From a virus: DNA of 39,963 nucleotides. A program made the translations under genes and the position numbers. This document shows, piece after piece, positions 7,178 through 39,869 of the stretch. The stretch covers positions 1-39,963 of the IMG/VR virus record IMGVR_UViG_3300046515_000280; one strand, written 5' to 3'. The stretch's first letter is position 1. Each line of letters begins with the position of its first letter. The notes below the pieces were generated by a model that saw nothing but the letters and a program-made list of their open reading frames with translations, was not told the DNA's origin and did no database searches.

Positions 7178-7584
7178 AGTTCAACCTCCAGGACTTGATA
7201 GACCGGCGCGAATCCGCAGCGCTGCCGATAAAGACGTTCTTGCGCCGGCTTGGCCGCGCACCGCATGCGCAAGCAGCCAAAGCCATGCGACATGGTTTTC
7301 AATTCATCAAAAAAACTTTCGAAGTGGCCGTGCGGGGCGTACATCTCGTAGATGTACATGACGCGGAAGTTCGGTAATTGCTCAACACCGATGACAGCCC
7401 AGCCCACGATTTCATCGTCACGATCCAGCCTGACCAGTGTTCGCTCGCCGCGGCTGAGCATCATCTTCAGCTGGTCGCCGGTGATCTCGCCGCCCGAGGT
7501 GGCGCAAGCCAAGCCCAGGTTGTGCGCACCCTCCTTCCAAGCCACGTCGATATGCGTCGTTGGCACTACGATCAGTTTGTTCAT
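7174..7584 (-). CDS. GNAT-like acetyltransferase-type phage protein
   Basis: 136 residues. The layout resembles a small GNAT fold: a strand-rich core with a substrate-side segment (RDDEIVGWAVIGVEQLPN), a following strand (MYIYEMYAPHG), a helix (SFFDELKTM) and an end consistent with the GNAT C-terminal segment (QERLYRQRCGFAPV). The acetyl-CoA loop (Q/R-x-x-G-x-G/A) is degenerate, so activity is uncertain. Similar short proteins occur beside tail-hub genes in podoviruses. It shares one base with its upstream neighbour. Confidence 0.45.
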   Translation of the reverse strand: MNKLIVVPTTHIDVAWKEGAHNLGLACATSGGEITGDQLKMMLSRGERTLVRLDRDDEIVGWAVIGVEQLPNFRVMYIYEMYAPHGHFESFFDELKTMSHGFGCLRMRCAAKPAQERLYRQRCGFAPVYQVLEVEL

Positions 7585-7877
7585 CAGTTACCTGTCAGGA
7601 AGCGCTTCTGTACCCAGGTGCCGGGCGTGCCGGAGACAACGCACATCCAGCCTTCTATGACGTATTTGGAGCCTGCGGTGCCGAGTTCAGAAGGGGCCGA
7701 GTTGTAAACCTCGTCGCCACTCATCCAATCTCCATTGGTTGGCGGGGCAGTCGTTGCGGCATAGAAGCCAGCAATACGGCCCTCGGATATCAAATTGACC
7801 TGAGTGGCGTGCTCGCGCAGCTCGCGCTGAAGCACCGGGTCGTTTGTCGCGACCGTAGGCGTTGTCCTGAGCTTCAT
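7584..7877 (-). CDS. phage structural hypothetical protein
   Basis: 97 residues. The N-terminus is polar and helical (RELREHATQVNLISEGRI); the C-terminal half looks beta-rich with Trp residues (GDWMSGDEVYNSAP, then GTWVQKRFLTG). It shares single bases with both neighbours, so it is cotranslated with the tail-hub-like gene and the GNAT-like gene. It is probably a minor tail or tail-tip component, based only on position. Confidence 0.45.
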   Translation of the reverse strand: MKLRTTPTVATNDPVLQRELREHATQVNLISEGRIAGFYAATTAPPTNGDWMSGDEVYNSAPSELGTAGSKYVIEGWMCVVSGTPGTWVQKRFLTGN

Positions 7878-31743: not shown

Positions 31744-32399
31744 ACGCCTACATCAGCAACGATCTGAACATGGTCAAGGAGCTAGACCCGCAACGCCATG
31801 AGCTGGCCTTGAAGATGGAAGAGTTTTTGAGTCACGGAGGGACTATTGAGGTCTTGCGGGGGCCAACCTTTGTGCCACCACCGACGAGAAATGAGCCGCC
31901 ACGGCGCAAGAGATCGCCGATCAAGGCAAAGGTTGTGAATGAGCCTGTGCCGCGCAAAGTCGACAAGCTGACCCAGCGCGAACTTGAGCGCGAGGAACGT
32001 GCCGTAGCCCGAGCCAGAGAACGAGTTGCGCTGGTAGACAGAATCCGCAAGTTGGCTGAAACGATGACATATGCCCAGGCAGTTGAATCCACCGGCATAT
32101 GCTTGCGCAGCCTTCAAAAGATCGCAGTCGATGCAGGATTCAGGTTCCAGCCGGCCGTCCATTACAACAGCCAAAACCTGAAGCGTTATGTGCCGGATGA
32201 CGCCAAAGATTCCAAGGACGCCGAAAGAATAAAGGCGTTCATGGAGATCGGTCTTTCTCGCAACCAGGCCATGGTCAAGCTCGGCGTATCGTTCAAAACT
32301 TTCGCCAGACTCCTGGATAAATTCAGCATCGACTATCCCAAGCGCAAAGCAGAGCCTCATCCGGCCTTCTTCCCAAAAAACAAGGAAGCATCTCAATGA
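31740..32399 (+). CDS. helix-turn-helix-containing early protein
   Basis: 219 residues. The N-terminal third is charged and Pro-rich, with a basic stretch (PRRKRSPIKAK). Two HTH-like units follow: TYAQAVESTGICLRSLQKIA and GLSRNQAMVKLGVSFKTFAR, the latter ending in DKFSIDYPKR. It lies between exo and the first DGR target and overlaps both by four bases, so it is translationally coupled to the target gene. It may be a DNA-binding regulator; targets unknown. Confidence 0.65.
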   Translation: MNAYISNDLNMVKELDPQRHELALKMEEFLSHGGTIEVLRGPTFVPPPTRNEPPRRKRSPIKAKVVNEPVPRKVDKLTQRELEREERAVARARERVALVDRIRKLAETMTYAQAVESTGICLRSLQKIAVDAGFRFQPAVHYNSQNLKRYVPDDAKDSKDAERIKAFMEIGLSRNQAMVKLGVSFKTFARLLDKFSIDYPKRKAEPHPAFFPKNKEASQ

Positions 32400-32998
32400 A
32401 AGCCGAAATGATCACTCTTAAACATGGCGAAACCACGATCAAGATGCCCGCTTCATCACTGGCCAAGCTGGCAATGGCCAGTGTGTTTGCCCAGGTGCTT
32501 CCCCCCGCCGCCAACGTCCAACCGGTAGGGCCTACGGATATACCCGAACTCGGCGCTGAATGGCCTGGGCAAGGGGGTTTCAACGGCGGGCTGGTAGCGG
32601 CGCGCGGCGCTGTCCCAGCGCACTACCTGATCATCGCCAAGGAAGACGTCGGTGATCACAAATGGGGCGGACGCGATAAGGTGTCAGCAGCCGTCAGCAA
32701 AACTGACGGGGTGGCGAACACTGAAGCCCTGAAGCCCGAAGGCGATCACCCTGCGGCCAAGGCTGCATCGGCGTATTCCGCCGATGGCCACGCTGATTTC
32801 TACCTGCCTGCCTGCGCCGAGCTGTACCACTGCTGGGTGAACGTTCCCGAACTGTTCGCCAAAGACACCTGGTACTGGTCCTCAACGCAGCGCTCCGCCA
32901 ACCTCGCATTCCTCATGCTCTTCGATGCTGGCTATCAGCTCAACCTCGTCAAGGACAGCGATCTCCGCGTCCGCCCCGTCCGCAGATTCTTTATTTAA
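32396..32998 (+). CDS. DGR target protein 1 (DUF1566/C-type-lectin-like)
   Basis: 200 residues; ATG in a four-base overlap with the preceding gene. The first 40 residues are a polar leader without signal peptide. The C-terminal region has the DUF1566/Lcl-type pattern: DFYLPACAELYHCW, then DTWYWSSTQRS, a variable stretch and LRVRPVRRF at the end. VR1 (32886-32989) encodes residues about 164-198. Compared with the template, residues 170, 173, 175, 178, 180, 182, 184, 185, 187 and 188 are changed by adenine substitutions. The fold is known to tolerate massive surface variation, so this protein should be a variable binding protein. Its ligand and location (virion, cytoplasm or envelope) are not shown. 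Confidence 0.9.
   Translation: MKAEMITLKHGETTIKMPASSLAKLAMASVFAQVLPPAANVQPVGPTDIPELGAEWPGQGGFNGGLVAARGAVPAHYLIIAKEDVGDHKWGGRDKVSAAVSKTDGVANTEALKPEGDHPAAKAASAYSADGHADFYLPACAELYHCWVNVPELFAKDTWYWSSTQRSANLAFLMLFDAGYQLNLVKDSDLRVRPVRRFFI
32886..32989 (+). repeat. DGR variable repeat VR1
   Basis: 104 bases aligned without gaps to the template at 34279-34382. It starts CGCAGCGCTCCGCC and ends with the invariant block CTCCGCGTCCGCCCCGTC + CGCAGATTC. I count 16 differences: 15 at template adenines (to C, T or G) and one G-to-T at 32962. Confidence 0.93.
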
Positions 32999-33030
32999 TC
33001 CTTCATTCATTCGTTGTTGATCTGGCACCG

Positions 33031-33050
33031 GGCGCATCAGCGCCTTTTTT
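33031..33050 (+). terminator. hairpin downstream of VR1, also terminator-like
   Basis: GGCGC pairs with GCGCC around ATCA, followed by six T residues. It begins 42 bases after the end of VR1. DGRs often need a GC-rich hairpin downstream of the VR for retrohoming; the T-run means it could also end or attenuate the transcript between the two targets. Confidence 0.7.
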
Positions 33051-33075
33051 GTTGCCTTCGAAAAGAGGAAAGACC

Positions 33076-33696
33076 ATGACCGCAGTTCAGAAAGAAGCGC
33101 CAGCAGTGACCATTCCCGAGATCGGCCAGCCATTCGGCGGCGGCTTCTTCTCCGGCATCACCCGCGATCCTGACACCGGCAAGCGCTACCTGAATATCAC
33201 CGCCGGCGCCGCGCATGAGCTGGCCGGTGCCTGGGGCGAGTACGGCGATAAGATCGAAGGCGCCGACAGCTTCACCAACAGTCGCGGCAATACTGAGGCG
33301 ATGGCGGTAGCAGGCAGCGAACTGGCGCAGAAGGTGCTGGCCTTGGACATCGGCGGATTCACCGACTGGGCAATCCCGGCGCGTGATGTGCAGGAGCTGC
33401 AGTACCGTCACTTCAAGCCGACTACCGAAACGAACTGGGCAGGGCGGCGCGACGGCGACAACCCCAACAGCGAGCCGGTCGGCTTGCTGTACAGCGAAGA
33501 GTCGCCGACCCAGACCACGCTGGCTGCCTTCCAAGAAGGTGGCGCAGAGGCCTTCCGCGATACCTGGTACTGGTCGAGTTCGCAGCGCTCCGCCCACTAC
33601 GCATTCGGCTTGACCTTCGATGATGGCGGTCAGTACGTCACCGTCAAGAGCTACGAGCTCCGCGTCCGCCCCGTCCGCAGCACGCTTATTGATTAA
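33076..33696 (+). CDS. DGR target protein 2 (DUF1566/C-type-lectin-like)
   Basis: 206 residues from ATG 33076 (MTAVQKEAPAVTIPEIGQPF), with GAGGAAA upstream; a longer reading to 33049 has no ribosome site. Same layout as target 1: an IPEIGQPFGGG start, FTDWAIPARDVQELQY in the middle, then DTWYWSSSQRS, variable stretch, and LRVRPVR. VR2 encodes residues about 169-202; twelve residues differ from the template (174, 175, 178-180, 185, 187-190, 192, 193). Identity to target 1 is low outside the C-terminal part, so this is an old, diverged duplicate served by the same template. No signal peptide. Confidence 0.9.
   Translation: MTAVQKEAPAVTIPEIGQPFGGGFFSGITRDPDTGKRYLNITAGAAHELAGAWGEYGDKIEGADSFTNSRGNTEAMAVAGSELAQKVLALDIGGFTDWAIPARDVQELQYRHFKPTTETNWAGRRDGDNPNSEPVGLLYSEESPTQTTLAAFQEGGAEAFRDTWYWSSSQRSAHYAFGLTFDDGGQYVTVKSYELRVRPVRSTLID
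33580..33680 (+). repeat. DGR variable repeat VR2
   Basis: 101 bases aligned without gaps to the template at 34278-34378. I count 15 differences, all at template adenines (to C, T and G). The 3' block through CCGTCCGCAG is unchanged; similarity stops there. Confidence 0.94.
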
Positions 33697-33710
33697 TTCA
33701 TTTATTCAAT

Positions 33711-33728
33711 CCGGCCGCTTGCGGCCGG
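33711..33728. repeat. GC-rich hairpin downstream of VR2
   Basis: CCGGCCG/CGGCCGG arms around CTTG (7-bp stem; the arms are symmetric for 8 bp with a 2-base centre). It begins 31 bases after VR2. No T-run follows, so it is not a terminator; it resembles the cruciform/hairpin element found downstream of VRs in other DGRs. Confidence 0.7.
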
Positions 33729-33749
33729 TTGCTCTTGGAGAGCAAGCCG

Positions 33750-34106
33750 ATGTCAATGCACACGGATTTGAGTATCTACAAAAGTTCGCTCGGCCTGCTA
33801 CAGATGGCCACGAATCTCACCCGCAACATACCCCGAGATCTCAAGCAGTCTCTCGGGAAGCGCGTTATTGATGAGTGCATCGACGTGCTGATGTTGATTG
33901 CCCGGGCTAACTCGACCCGGGACAAGCAGCCACACCTGACTTTGCTTGTCGAGAAGGTCCAGGTAATCGAGTTCCTGATGCGGCTTTTCAAAGAGAGTCG
34001 ATTTATCAGTGTCGGGCAGCACGCCACCGCGATAGAGATAACCAGTTCTATCGGCAAACAGGCGAATGCCTGGAAGCGCAACACCCCAGCCGCGCCCGCC
34101 ATCTGA
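33750..34106 (+). CDS. avd: DGR accessory variability protein Avd
   Basis: 118 residues from ATG 33750 (MSMHTDLSIYK), with GGAG 9 bases upstream. The four-helix-bundle Avd pattern is clear: LTRNIPRDLKQSLGKRVIDE, then a second helix ending LIARAN, DKQPHLTLLVEKVQVIEFLM in helix three, and the typical FKESRFISVGQHATAIEIT followed by IGKQANAWKR. Avd forms a pentamer that binds the template RNA and the reverse transcriptase and is needed for adenine-mutagenic cDNA synthesis. It lies between target 2 and the template, the standard order. Confidence 0.88.
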   Translation: MSMHTDLSIYKSSLGLLQMATNLTRNIPRDLKQSLGKRVIDECIDVLMLIARANSTRDKQPHLTLLVEKVQVIEFLMRLFKESRFISVGQHATAIEITSSIGKQANAWKRNTPAAPAI

Positions 34107-34277
34107 GAGTTACGGCTTTCAGGTCTGTGCGAATTGAATCTGGTCGTGCCGCTGGCCCCTGGGTCACCGCCATGCGCATCAGAGATACCGACGGTCTAAA
34201 ACGTCCGTATAGGTCTCGCGCAGTTTCCTCGCTGATCGGTTATGCCTTCGGCTTGGCGACATAGATAGCACGATAGG
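34107..34277 (+). other. spacer between avd and the template repeat
   Basis: 171 bases with no gene that I can support. It contains short dyads (for example GACGG ... CCGT near 34195-34210). It is probably the 5' part of the DGR template RNA. Confidence 0.5.
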
Positions 34278-34382
34278 TCGCAGCGCTCCGCCAACAACGC
34301 ATTCAACATGAACTTCGATGATGGCAATCAGAACAACAACGACAAGAACAACGAGCTCCGCGTCCGCCCCGTCCGCAGATTC
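34278..34382 (+). repeat. DGR template repeat TR
   Basis: 105 bases. Read in the target frame it would give mostly Asn codons (AAC/AAT at nine to ten positions), the signature of an adenine-dense template. Its 3' end matches both VRs exactly, except one base in VR1. Bases 34318-34382 are also coding for the first residues of the reverse transcriptase in another frame. Confidence 0.94.
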
Positions 34383-35529
34383 GACTGTTGGTCCCTACCC
34401 GTTCAGCGAACTGGTTCAGGCCTATTACGACTGCCGGCGCACGAAGCGCAACAGCGCCAGTGCATTGGCCTTCGAGTTGGACCTGGAACGCAACCTGATC
34501 GGCCTACACGACGACCTGCTCGCCGGCACTTACCGGCCAGGCCGCTCGATATGCTTCGTGGTCACCCGGCCGAAAGCCCGCGAGGTTTGGGCGGCAGCCT
34601 TCCGGGACCGCGTCGTCCACCACCTACTGTACAACCGCGTGGCACCTCGCTTCTACGCCAGCTTCATAGTGGACAGTTGCGCCTGCATTCCCGGGCGCGG
34701 CACGTTGTACGCCGCCACCCGGCTTGAGGCGAAGATCCGCAGCGCCAGCCAGAACTGGTCGAGGCCCTGCTGGTATCTAAAGCTTGACCTGGCCAACTTC
34801 TTCGTCGCGATCGACAAGCAGGTGCTTCGCCGGCAGTTGGCCGCCAAGATCACCGAACCCTGGTGGCTGGCACTCGCCGAGCAGATCCTGATGCACGACC
34901 CGCGCGAAGACTACGAGGTACGCAGCCCGGCCCATCTGTTCAACCGGGTACCGCAGCACAAGCGCCTCACCGCGCAACCGGCGCATCTCGGACTGCCGAT
35001 CGGCAACCTGTCTTCACAGTTCTTCGCGAACGTCTACCTCGACGCGCTGGACCAGTTCGCAAAGCACAAGCTCGGCGCCAAGCATTACGTCCGCTACGTC
35101 GATGACTTCGTGTTCCTGCATGAATCACCGCAACAGCTGAATGCCTGGAAGGTCGAGGTCGAAGCATTCCTGCCCAGCCTAGGTGCCAAGCTGAACCCGA
35201 CGAAGACCATTCTGCAGCCGGTCGACCGCGGCGTCGACTTCGTTGGCCACGTCATCAAGCCTTGGCGGCGAACCACCCGCAAGCGTTCGCTGGCCCAGGC
35301 GCTGAAACGGACCGCAGCGGCACCGGCCGAAGACCTTAGGGAAACGGCCAACAGCTACTTCGGCCTGCTCAGTCAGGCCAGCCACAGCGAGAGAGATCGC
35401 GAGAAGCTGGCCAATGTCGTGCTGAAGCGCGGGCATAGCGTCAATTCGGCGCTGAGCAAGACCTATAAGAAGGTGGACGCATTTCAGCCCCGTAGGCCAG
35501 ATCACGCCAGCGCGCCAAATCGGAAATAA
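34318..35529 (+). CDS. DGR reverse transcriptase
   Basis: 403 residues. The first 22 residues are encoded by the template repeat (MMAIRTTTTRTTSS...). The RT domain starts near residue 27 (YPFSELVQAYYDC). Key motifs: PKAREVWAAAFRDRVVHHLL, LKLDLANFF with Asp157, GLPIGNLSSQ at residues 225-234 (the SQ form is characteristic of DGR RTs), and the catalytic YVDD at 260-263. A DGR RT copies the template RNA with adenine misincorporation, and the cDNA replaces the VR. An in-frame TGA at 34309 means the start must be ATG 34318 or 34321, inside the template; no clear ribosome site precedes it. The C-terminus is basic and helical. Confidence 0.93.
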   Translation: MMAIRTTTTRTTSSASAPSADSTVGPYPFSELVQAYYDCRRTKRNSASALAFELDLERNLIGLHDDLLAGTYRPGRSICFVVTRPKAREVWAAAFRDRVVHHLLYNRVAPRFYASFIVDSCACIPGRGTLYAATRLEAKIRSASQNWSRPCWYLKLDLANFFVAIDKQVLRRQLAAKITEPWWLALAEQILMHDPREDYEVRSPAHLFNRVPQHKRLTAQPAHLGLPIGNLSSQFFANVYLDALDQFAKHKLGAKHYVRYVDDFVFLHESPQQLNAWKVEVEAFLPSLGAKLNPTKTILQPVDRGVDFVGHVIKPWRRTTRKRSLAQALKRTAAAPAEDLRETANSYFGLLSQASHSERDREKLANVVLKRGHSVNSALSKTYKKVDAFQPRRPDHASAPNRK

Positions 35530-37785: not shown

Positions 37786-37984
37786 CGTGCACGAACAGAA
37801 CACAGACGGTCGCCCTGGAAAGCTGCTGGACGTCATCGACCGCGTCCCCGAGACCCGCAAGACAGGCAGCTTCGTCGAGTTCGACGGCGAAATGCACAAG
37901 GTCATGACTGGGATTCGCAACTTCATCATCGTCACTCAAGAGCGCTGGGCTCGGGTGTCGGCTGCTGCGTGGAGGAAAATATGA
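37772..37984 (+). CDS. small early protein (70 aa)
   Basis: 70 residues starting MATFDVHEQNTDGRPGKLLD; a beta-type middle (FVEFDGEMHKVMTG, NFIIVTQERWARV) suggests a small barrel. It overlaps both neighbours (14 and 4 bases). No family recognised. Confidence 0.5.
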   Translation: MATFDVHEQNTDGRPGKLLDVIDRVPETRKTGSFVEFDGEMHKVMTGIRNFIIVTQERWARVSAAAWRKI

Positions 37985-38436
37985 CTGATATCAAACTATT
38001 GCCATGCCCGTTCTGTGGTGGCGATGCAGTCTTGAAGCAATATCGAGCTGATGGCCTAGAGATCAGATGCTCGGGGTGCCAATCCATGCGCCAGCAGCGC
38101 TGGATGTACAAGGGGCGCGATTGGCTTGAGGCGAAAATGATCGAAAAGTGGAATGAGCGCACCGGCTACACCGCCGTAGACATGACCACCGCTGCGGCGC
38201 AAGGGTTCAGGGATGGGGTGGCGAGCAAGTCAGAGCCATGCGATGGCTGCTTCATGGCTGATGCCGAGGCCTTGAGCCAAAATGCCGATCGGTATCAAGT
38301 CCTGCGAAATGGATATCTGGGTGGAGAGCTACGAATTTCAGTCCAATACGAGAACACACGGACCGGCATGAGGGTTCTCGTTAACGGCGAGCAACTGGAT
38401 GCAATCGTTGATGGCGCCATGAGCAAGGAGGGTTGA
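37981..38436 (+). CDS. Lar-like restriction alleviation family protein
   Basis: 151 residues from ATG 37981. The N-terminal 60 residues are a zinc ribbon of the Lar type: LLPCPFCGGDAVLKQ, then IRCSGCQSMRQ and an end with MIEKWNERTG. Lar-type proteins reduce host type I restriction by helping modification. The C-terminal half is an unrelated extension with a further CDGC pair. Family membership is by the N-terminal ribbon only. Confidence 0.7.
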   Translation: MTDIKLLPCPFCGGDAVLKQYRADGLEIRCSGCQSMRQQRWMYKGRDWLEAKMIEKWNERTGYTAVDMTTAAAQGFRDGVASKSEPCDGCFMADAEALSQNADRYQVLRNGYLGGELRISVQYENTRTGMRVLVNGEQLDAIVDGAMSKEG

Positions 38437-39779: not shown

Positions 39780-39869
39780 TGGCGGAGAGATAGGGATTCG
39801 AACCCTAGGTACCGGTGAAGGTACAACGGATTTCGAATCCGTCCCATTCGGCCACTCTGGCATCTCTCC
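39780..39869 (-). tRNA. tRNA-Ser (anticodon CGA)
   Basis: 90 bases. A 7-bp acceptor stem (GGAGAGA with TCTCTCC), discriminator G and encoded CCA are present. The anticodon stem ACGGA/TCCGT encloses TTCGAAA, giving anticodon CGA for serine UCG codons. The long variable arm (TTGTACCTTCACCGGTACC region) is typical of class II tRNAs, and the GGTTCGAATCC T-arm is canonical. It is the probable attachment gene of the prophage. Confidence 0.95.

Follow-up and report, generated by a model that had tools for sequence, protein, structure and literature searches.

The window analysed here, the whole 39,963-nucleotide stretch of IMG/VR virus record IMGVR_UViG_3300046515_000280, almost certainly carries a complete diversity-generating retroelement (DGR) belonging to a temperate short-tailed phage. 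Completeness had been claimed in an earlier note on this DNA and is borne out: genes for an accessory variability determinant (Avd) and a reverse transcriptase (RT), one template repeat (TR), two variable repeats (VRs), the structured RNA RT-15 as a putative leader and a hairpin downstream of each VR were all found. The full set of parts, a concentration of changes at template adenines, TR changes common to both VRs and differing VRs in near-identical cassettes are apparent in the sequences themselves. The mechanism is ordinary, as elements with two targets, and templates that extend over the start of the RT gene, have already been described, and what is new lies in the setting and the relatives, not in the kind of element. 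The interval of 32886–34382 assigned in the earlier note places the three repeats rightly and omits most of the RT gene (34318–35529).

The TR spans positions 34278–34382 (plus strand, as for each cassette feature below). VR1 (32886–32989) matches TR positions 34279–34382 without gaps over 104 bases, and 15 of its 16 differences are at TR adenines (7 to T, 6 to C and 2 to G). VR2 (33580–33680) is a gapless 101-base match to 34278–34378 with 15 differences, all 15 at TR adenines. Realignment returned the figures previously claimed for both matches, and the changes to C, T and G that had been described are all seen in VR1. The hypergeometric probability of such a concentration at adenines is 1.6e-8 for VR1 and 1.0e-9 for VR2. 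A 51-base pattern that ignores adenines has exactly 3 copies in the whole 39,963-base record, and its reversed control has none. Of the 31 TR adenines in a 100-base core, 21 are sites at which the two VRs disagree, and only 1 of the 8 adenines altered in both is changed to the same base, which agrees with the earlier statement that they diverge at most mutable sites. Each VR lies at the 3′-end of an open frame, one of 200 and the other of 206 amino acids (aa).

The avd gene (33750–34106) predicts a 118 aa protein that matches bAvd (PF22296; E 3e-12, above cut-off), phrog_3206 ('Avd protein of DGR'; E 2e-30) and NCBIfam NF033474 (DivGenRetAVD; E 8e-14, below its cut-off). The predicted 403 aa RT matches RVT_1 (E 2e-17) and phrog_1423 (E 2e-117), and its best solved relative is PDB 8ub7 (E 9e-36), labelled 'Reverse transcriptase' and presumably the BPP-1 enzyme. 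The motif IGxxxSQ, a hallmark of DGR RTs, and YxDD are present in 54 of the 54 RTs compared, and take the form IGNLSSQ and YVDD in the window. The profile search that the earlier note had proposed therefore upholds its assignment of an adjoining Avd and an RT with YVDD and the SQ motif.

The adenine pattern extends to the relatives. A scan of viral contigs yielded 61 loci, with TR-like stretches sought by the 69 non-adenine sites of the window TR, of which up to 20 could differ, and adenines ignored. A TR with at least one VR was present in the window and 51 loci, 8 loci gave no match, L009 has one copy near the contig start and L058 one poor copy. The TR is identical or nearly so among close relatives whereas the VRs vary. 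Over the 103 VRs of the window and its 51 relatives (VR1 and VR2 only, with extra copies in L018, L027 and L038 left out and near-identical loci counted separately), departures from the cognate TR occur at 1456 of 3159 adenine sites and at 25 of 7141 others, with 686 changes to G, 523 to T and 247 to C. Thirty bacterial or archaeal genome loci, some of which duplicate viral-contig loci, include 21 with a TR and VRs, 2 with a TR alone and 7 with neither; differences in the 21 fall at 645 of 1401 adenine sites and 37 of 3299 other sites, 21 of the 37 being in L095 and 7 in one VR of L084. Alignment across relatives had been suggested as a check, and changes spread equally over the four bases, named beforehand as the outcome that would speak against a DGR, are found neither in the 103 VRs nor in the 21 genome loci. 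Of a further 14 loci and phage records, mostly more divergent, 13 gave adenine-specific repeat pairs, in a scan that admitted up to 2 non-adenine differences per 60 bases and hence has part of the adenine bias built in; the exception is L058, which has a repeat pair but no clear adenine-specific one. In L095 (Pseudomonas fluorescens HK44), the RT match covers only residues 23–302 (94% identity) and the RT may be broken; the nearest VR has 0 non-adenine changes and the next has 4.

The TR of L043 differs from that of the window at 13 non-adenine sites, and both L043 VRs match their own TR at every non-adenine site; TR changes in relatives are thus common to both VRs. Among 129 distinct TR–VR pairs with no more than 3 other differences, change is rare (1 to 7%) where an adenine is followed by G or lies within AAG, and averages 43 to 72% in other contexts, with variation between single sites (TR position 16, an AAC, 11%). 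The base 3′ of the adenine also governs the error profile of BPP-1 (PMC12875486).

Two prophages with the same IMG number, L019 and L021, share an aligned block of 3366 bases with 40 mismatches and one gap, and elsewhere have one 935-base block at a different place and little more in common. Thirteen of the mismatches are in VR1, 19 in VR2 and 8 in the RT gene, and 32 of the 32 in the VRs are at TR adenines, while the TR, the avd stretch and the 380 bases upstream of each VR are identical. The earlier note had named identical VRs in all isolates, with a disrupted RT, as a contrary outcome; this was sought, and here the VRs differ in near-identical cassettes. The near-identical sets L011/L041, L028/L029/L030 and L034/L035 have no VR difference, as expected of the same or a very recent phage, and L022/L023 have two VR differences, both non-adenine. 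Judged from these comparisons, the DGR family appears to be recently active.

Target gene 1 (32396–32998) and target gene 2 (33076–33696) predict lectin-like proteins of 200 and 206 aa, with C-termini formed by VR1 and VR2, respectively. Both match phrog_4245 (E 4e-31 and 3e-30) and, below the family cut-off, Lcl_C (E 0.002 and 9e-7). Their structural models are modest (mean predicted local distance difference test (pLDDT) scores of 76 and 69), with much of the VR-encoded part below 60 in both. The target 1 model has 46 Foldseek matches, none of them in the PDB at E 0.001 or better. The target 2 model aligns with the C-terminal domain of Legionella Lcl (8q4e) at a middling Z of 6.9 over 109 residues (root-mean-square deviation (rmsd) 3.5), and with 4eps at Z 6.9 over 157 residues (rmsd 6.7). 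Alignments of the target proteins used 29 and 30 hand-picked sequences from 51 loci. By predicted function, the two are most likely diversified ligand binders.

A GC-rich hairpin (GGCGC-ATCA-GCGCC, 33031–33044) lies 45 bases 3′ of the VR1 core, and another (CCGGCCG-CTTG-CGGCCGG, 33711–33728) 30 bases 3′ of VR2. At a score threshold of 15, chosen so that the five-base VR1 stems count, a hairpin is found 3′ of VR1 in 49 of 51 sequences (at 34–58 bases), 3′ of VR2 in 46 of 51 (at 28–33 bases) and 3′ of the TR in 1 of 51. Rates in shuffled sequence are 0.02 for VR1, 0.05 for VR2 and 0.02 to 0.07 overall. At threshold 16 the corresponding counts are 5/51, 46/51 and 0/52. The stems vary among relatives but pairing is kept, and in 4 relatives the hairpin 3′ of VR2 has a GATA or GGCA loop. 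A hairpin 3′ of the VR is needed for efficient homing of BPP-1, and a GRNA hairpin loop is given for other phage DGRs (PMC3240598).

The stretch linking the 3′-end of avd with the beginning of the TR (34090–34280) is a full-length match to the structured RNA RT-15 (Rfam RF03018), scoring 175.2 bits against a gathering score of 82. Among 199 genomes of the genus Pseudomonas (the genus of the genome carrying L073, some members being already known as RT carriers), RT-15 is above cut-off at 17 places in 15 genomes, and a strong RT match starts 38 to 41 positions downstream at 17 of the 17. Three further RT-15 matches are below cut-off and have no adjoining RT of this kind. Conversely, only one of the 18 RT matches with E <1e-150, a partial one in G243, is without RT-15. 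RT-15 is also present in 10 of 12 other loci, L058 and L062 being without it. Because an RT follows at all of the above-cut-off places, it is concluded from these sequences that RT-15 is probably the template-RNA leader of this DGR clade, and it would be transcribed together with the TR. The Rfam entry as shown names just RT-15 RNA, and the link to a DGR template is made in the present analysis; no paper connecting RT-15 with DGRs was found in the literature search. The family is said to come, in all likelihood, from work by Weinberg in 2017.

Pairing of the leader sequence TTGAATCTG with the bases directly 3′ of the TR, CAGATTCGA, was considered and rejected. It is present in close relatives of the window, with a compensating change in L044/L045, and is missing from the stems found in L054, L055, L057, L059, L060, L062, L067 and L069–L072, though the leader motif is largely kept in divergent loci despite the missing stem. 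BPP-1 has a 3′ spacer after its TR. A conserved spacer was also looked for in the RT coding sequence 3′ of the TR, and no long RNA element is evident beyond approximately 34404: the fraction of differing four-fold sites in 48 RTs is 0.084 and 0.110 in the two blocks spanning the TR and the next 22 bases, then 0.410 and 0.371, and 0.19 to 0.54 in the remaining blocks.

When start codons were listed from the upstream frame stop to TR position 126, those of the window RT at 34318 and 34321 were inside the TR, so that the beginning of the RT message coincides with template sequence. A stop codon at TR positions 31–33 bounds the RT frame upstream in 47 of 54 sequences, including the window, and an ATG is present at TR position 43 in 52 of 54; the RT therefore most likely starts within the template. 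The relatives without this ATG are L052 and L058. In the proposed mechanism, the RT, together with Avd, would copy a transcript containing the RT-15 leader and the TR into complementary DNA (cDNA), making errors at template adenines, and the cDNA would replace the 3′-ends of the two neighbouring lectin-like genes. Replacement would be guided by the common GC-rich 3′-end of the repeats and the hairpin 3′ of each VR, and the TR, which has no hairpin, would be spared from overwriting. The limits of the transcript, the priming of the cDNA, its integration, the role of the hairpins and the function of the targets are all predicted parts of this scheme.

Divergence of the repeats by chance or point mutation, with no DGR involved, is vanishingly improbable given the hypergeometric values for the window and the pooled counts for the 103 VRs. 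A second explanation is that the VR differences arose by recombination among phages with different VR alleles while the local RT was inactive. Recombination is plain in this family, as L019 and L021 share a 3.4-kb cassette and little else, and Aurca01, a phage that has lost the RT, is 99.8% identical to phage Cruim01 over 3.75 kb from just past that loss. However, recombination merely shuffles variants and the adenine pattern would still require a DGR, and the non-adenine TR changes common to both VRs (13 sites in L043) also speak against this explanation, which is considered very unlikely. Several observations do count against a complete and working DGR in the window. The sole non-adenine change in VR1 is G-to-T at TR 34355, no ribosome-binding site is visible by eye upstream of 34318, and the hairpin loops of the window, ATCA and CTTG, misfit the GRNA loop of other phage DGRs. 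No record with the window cassette and different VRs was present among the loci compared, and recent activity is claimed for the family, on sequence comparison, and not for the window phage itself. Base changes follow the measured BPP-1 profile only partly: in BPP-1, change to C is raised at the second A of AAC (PMC12875486), an effect not seen here (6%); selection on codons could have shaped the profile.

The genomic setting of the targets bears on their role. In the window, terminase, portal, scaffold, head, SU10-type adaptor, ejection and lysis genes are on the minus strand, and cI, Bet-like and YqaJ genes, the DGR and a Lar-like gene are on the plus strand; an integrase gene on the minus strand adjoins a tRNA-Ser at the right end. 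This reads as a temperate short-tailed phage, a Pseudomonas-type prophage. The targets may be ordinary receptor-binding or tail-tip proteins, like Mtd of BPP-1, with diversification altering adsorption, and this is given a little under an even chance. A receptor-binding role is established for several phage DGRs, the targets of clades 1, 4 and 6 being mostly annotated as tail proteins (PMC8144416), and the lectin-like family matches would fit such a role. However, the targets are co-directional with the cI, Bet-like and YqaJ genes and approximately 14 kb from the structural operon on the opposite strand, and separate frames with weak tail-fibre matches exist at 1937–2485 and 7584–7877. The same cassette is also found in records with lambda-type tails, presumably marked by PF13550 and PF05100, whereas the window has a portal, an SU10-type adaptor and ejection proteins. 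PF13550 was detected in 16 of 37 relatives' records (15 over cut-off), 11 of the 16 also having PF05100, and these records may be fragments or contain more than one phage. PF13550 was not found in the window, and the window portal was matched, weakly, in 1 of 38 records. A supposed tape-measure family, phrog_13 (16/37 records), was tried and not used, as its identity was not shown. The occurrence of the cassette in records with differing tail genes indicates that it is not tied to one tail gene set.

The alternative role, for which the chances are put at about even, is that the targets work in the lysogen or at an early stage of infection, by superinfection exclusion, counter-defence or display on the cell surface, and not in the virion. 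The cassette is between a cI-like repressor and the integrase in Cruim01, Aurca01 and Medea1 have the same repressor–integrase location without avd, TR and RT, and in Haboob and Magia the cassette is near repressor or recombination genes. A methyltransferase gene is present in the examined stretch of 4 of these 5 named phages, a Lar-like restriction-alleviation match is found in the window, and second VRs are near counter-defence genes in gut prophages (PMC12629997). Against this, gene position is merely circumstantial, and no PADLOC family matches either target. The setting allows a tail role without pointing to one. Considering the operon of the targets and the varied tail genes of the phages that carry them, a function away from the tail, in the lysogen, counter-defence or superinfection, is at least as likely as receptor binding.

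VRs also occur away from RTs. A pattern blind to adenines, with up to 3 mismatches allowed, was run against 16 whole genomes, several of which have VRs beyond the neighbouring pair. G046, the draft genome of L080 in which several hits are near contig ends, has one TR, on contig 15. Its contig 18 has two VRs near a 44-residue RT remnant and an integrase-like frame (by eye), and contig 25 has two more VRs approximately 126 kb apart. At one TR position, the TRs of the window and its 51 relatives have G (49) or T (3) and the 21 genome-locus TRs have G (15), T (5) or, only in G046, A. All six G046 VRs have A (3) or C (3) at this position, which points to copying from the G046 TR into loci without an RT. 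Three of them differ at one more site where the TR has C, which is explained if the TR mutated there later. VR pairs off the TR contig and near contig ends were also seen in G042 (contig 21, L138) and G047 (contig 388, L137), and may be due to assembly breaks at repeats rather than to remote targets.

Aurca01 and Medea1 have only an RT remnant (query residues 314–391, two stops) and, over their whole records, no TR-like copy at up to 3 mismatches. They are collinear and gapless across the join that replaces avd–TR–RT. Their VR1 sequences have 15 differences, all at adenines of the Cruim01 TR, against 4 in the 480 bases just upstream, and their VR2 sequences have 16, of which 15 are at such adenines, against 30 in the 480 bases just upstream. 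Rewriting that went on in trans once the RT was lost is the most economical explanation, with recombination as the other. Rewriting in trans is weakened by the near-identity of Aurca01 and Cruim01, as recombination acts here and could also import VRs, and by the loss of the hairpin 3′ of VR2 in both Aurca01 and Medea1, that 3′ of VR1 being kept. RT-less relatives with differing VRs do not contradict the DGR assignment. A joint proposal, that one RT/TR copy rewrites the lectin-like genes of RT-less resident Pseudomonas prophages, that the targets are not tail proteins and that RT-15 is a conserved template-RNA handle, is put forward tentatively and is rather more likely wrong than right. If it is true, RT-less phages remain hypervariable as dependants. 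The literature search, of partial coverage, found no report of RT-less DGR targets served in trans between phages; the wording 'remote target' is used in PMC4891356 and PMC7517822. The natural RT-less relatives allow diversification in trans to be tested directly.

The gene order of BPP-1 is mtd, avd, TR, brt on one strand, and the window has the same target–avd–TR–RT order on one strand and an RT that matches 8ub7. Unlike BPP-1, there are two targets outside the tail gene cluster, the TR overlaps the RT start and the loops are not GRNA, although both have a hairpin 3′ of the VR (PMC3240598). The overlap of TR and RT gene is a likeness to DiGReF group 3, in which the TR extends over either end of the RT frame, and two paralogous targets are shared with two-VR DGRs including that of Pseudomonas fluorescens WH6 (PMC3521204); the phage context, RT-15 leader and hairpins are features of the present clade beyond the available part of that description. 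In Pseudogulbenkiania NH8B, distal VRs are thought to be served by an RT elsewhere and a mutated RT is near the distal targets, whereas here RT-less target pairs are also found in separate temperate phage genomes (PMC3521204). Bacuni phages of Bacteroides likewise have two DUF1566-type targets, Avd, RT and TR, but one target is far from the core and a role in host range is proposed (PMC8143477). With its many relatives, this phage DGR, whose two tandem targets are not in the tail module, lends itself to clean comparison, and the orphan Rfam family RT-15 gains a likely identity. Should the targets prove not to be tail proteins, the uses of phage DGRs would extend beyond attachment to the host.

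Ten loci (L018, 2653; L027, 2656; L073, 494; L074, 4653; L084, 3004; L087, 2450; L091, 628; L092, 4974; L065, 12010; L066, 11568) have an extra VR, which precedes the tandem pair by 1.6 to 8.5 kb, and the window has no such copy. In L018 and L027 it is inside a third lectin-like frame (by eye). No GC-rich hairpin at threshold was found 3′ of the extra VR in Cruim01 and Aurca01. A second, 26-residue match to the RT start in Cruim01 (PP179333.1, 43574–43651) is due to overlap with the third VR. The Lar-like match in the window is in a frame at 37969–38436, on the same strand as the DGR. No direct repeat of at least 30 bases was found linking the tRNA-Ser to the left end of the window; the tRNA-Ser (CGA) at 39780–39869, beside the integrase, is the likely attachment site.

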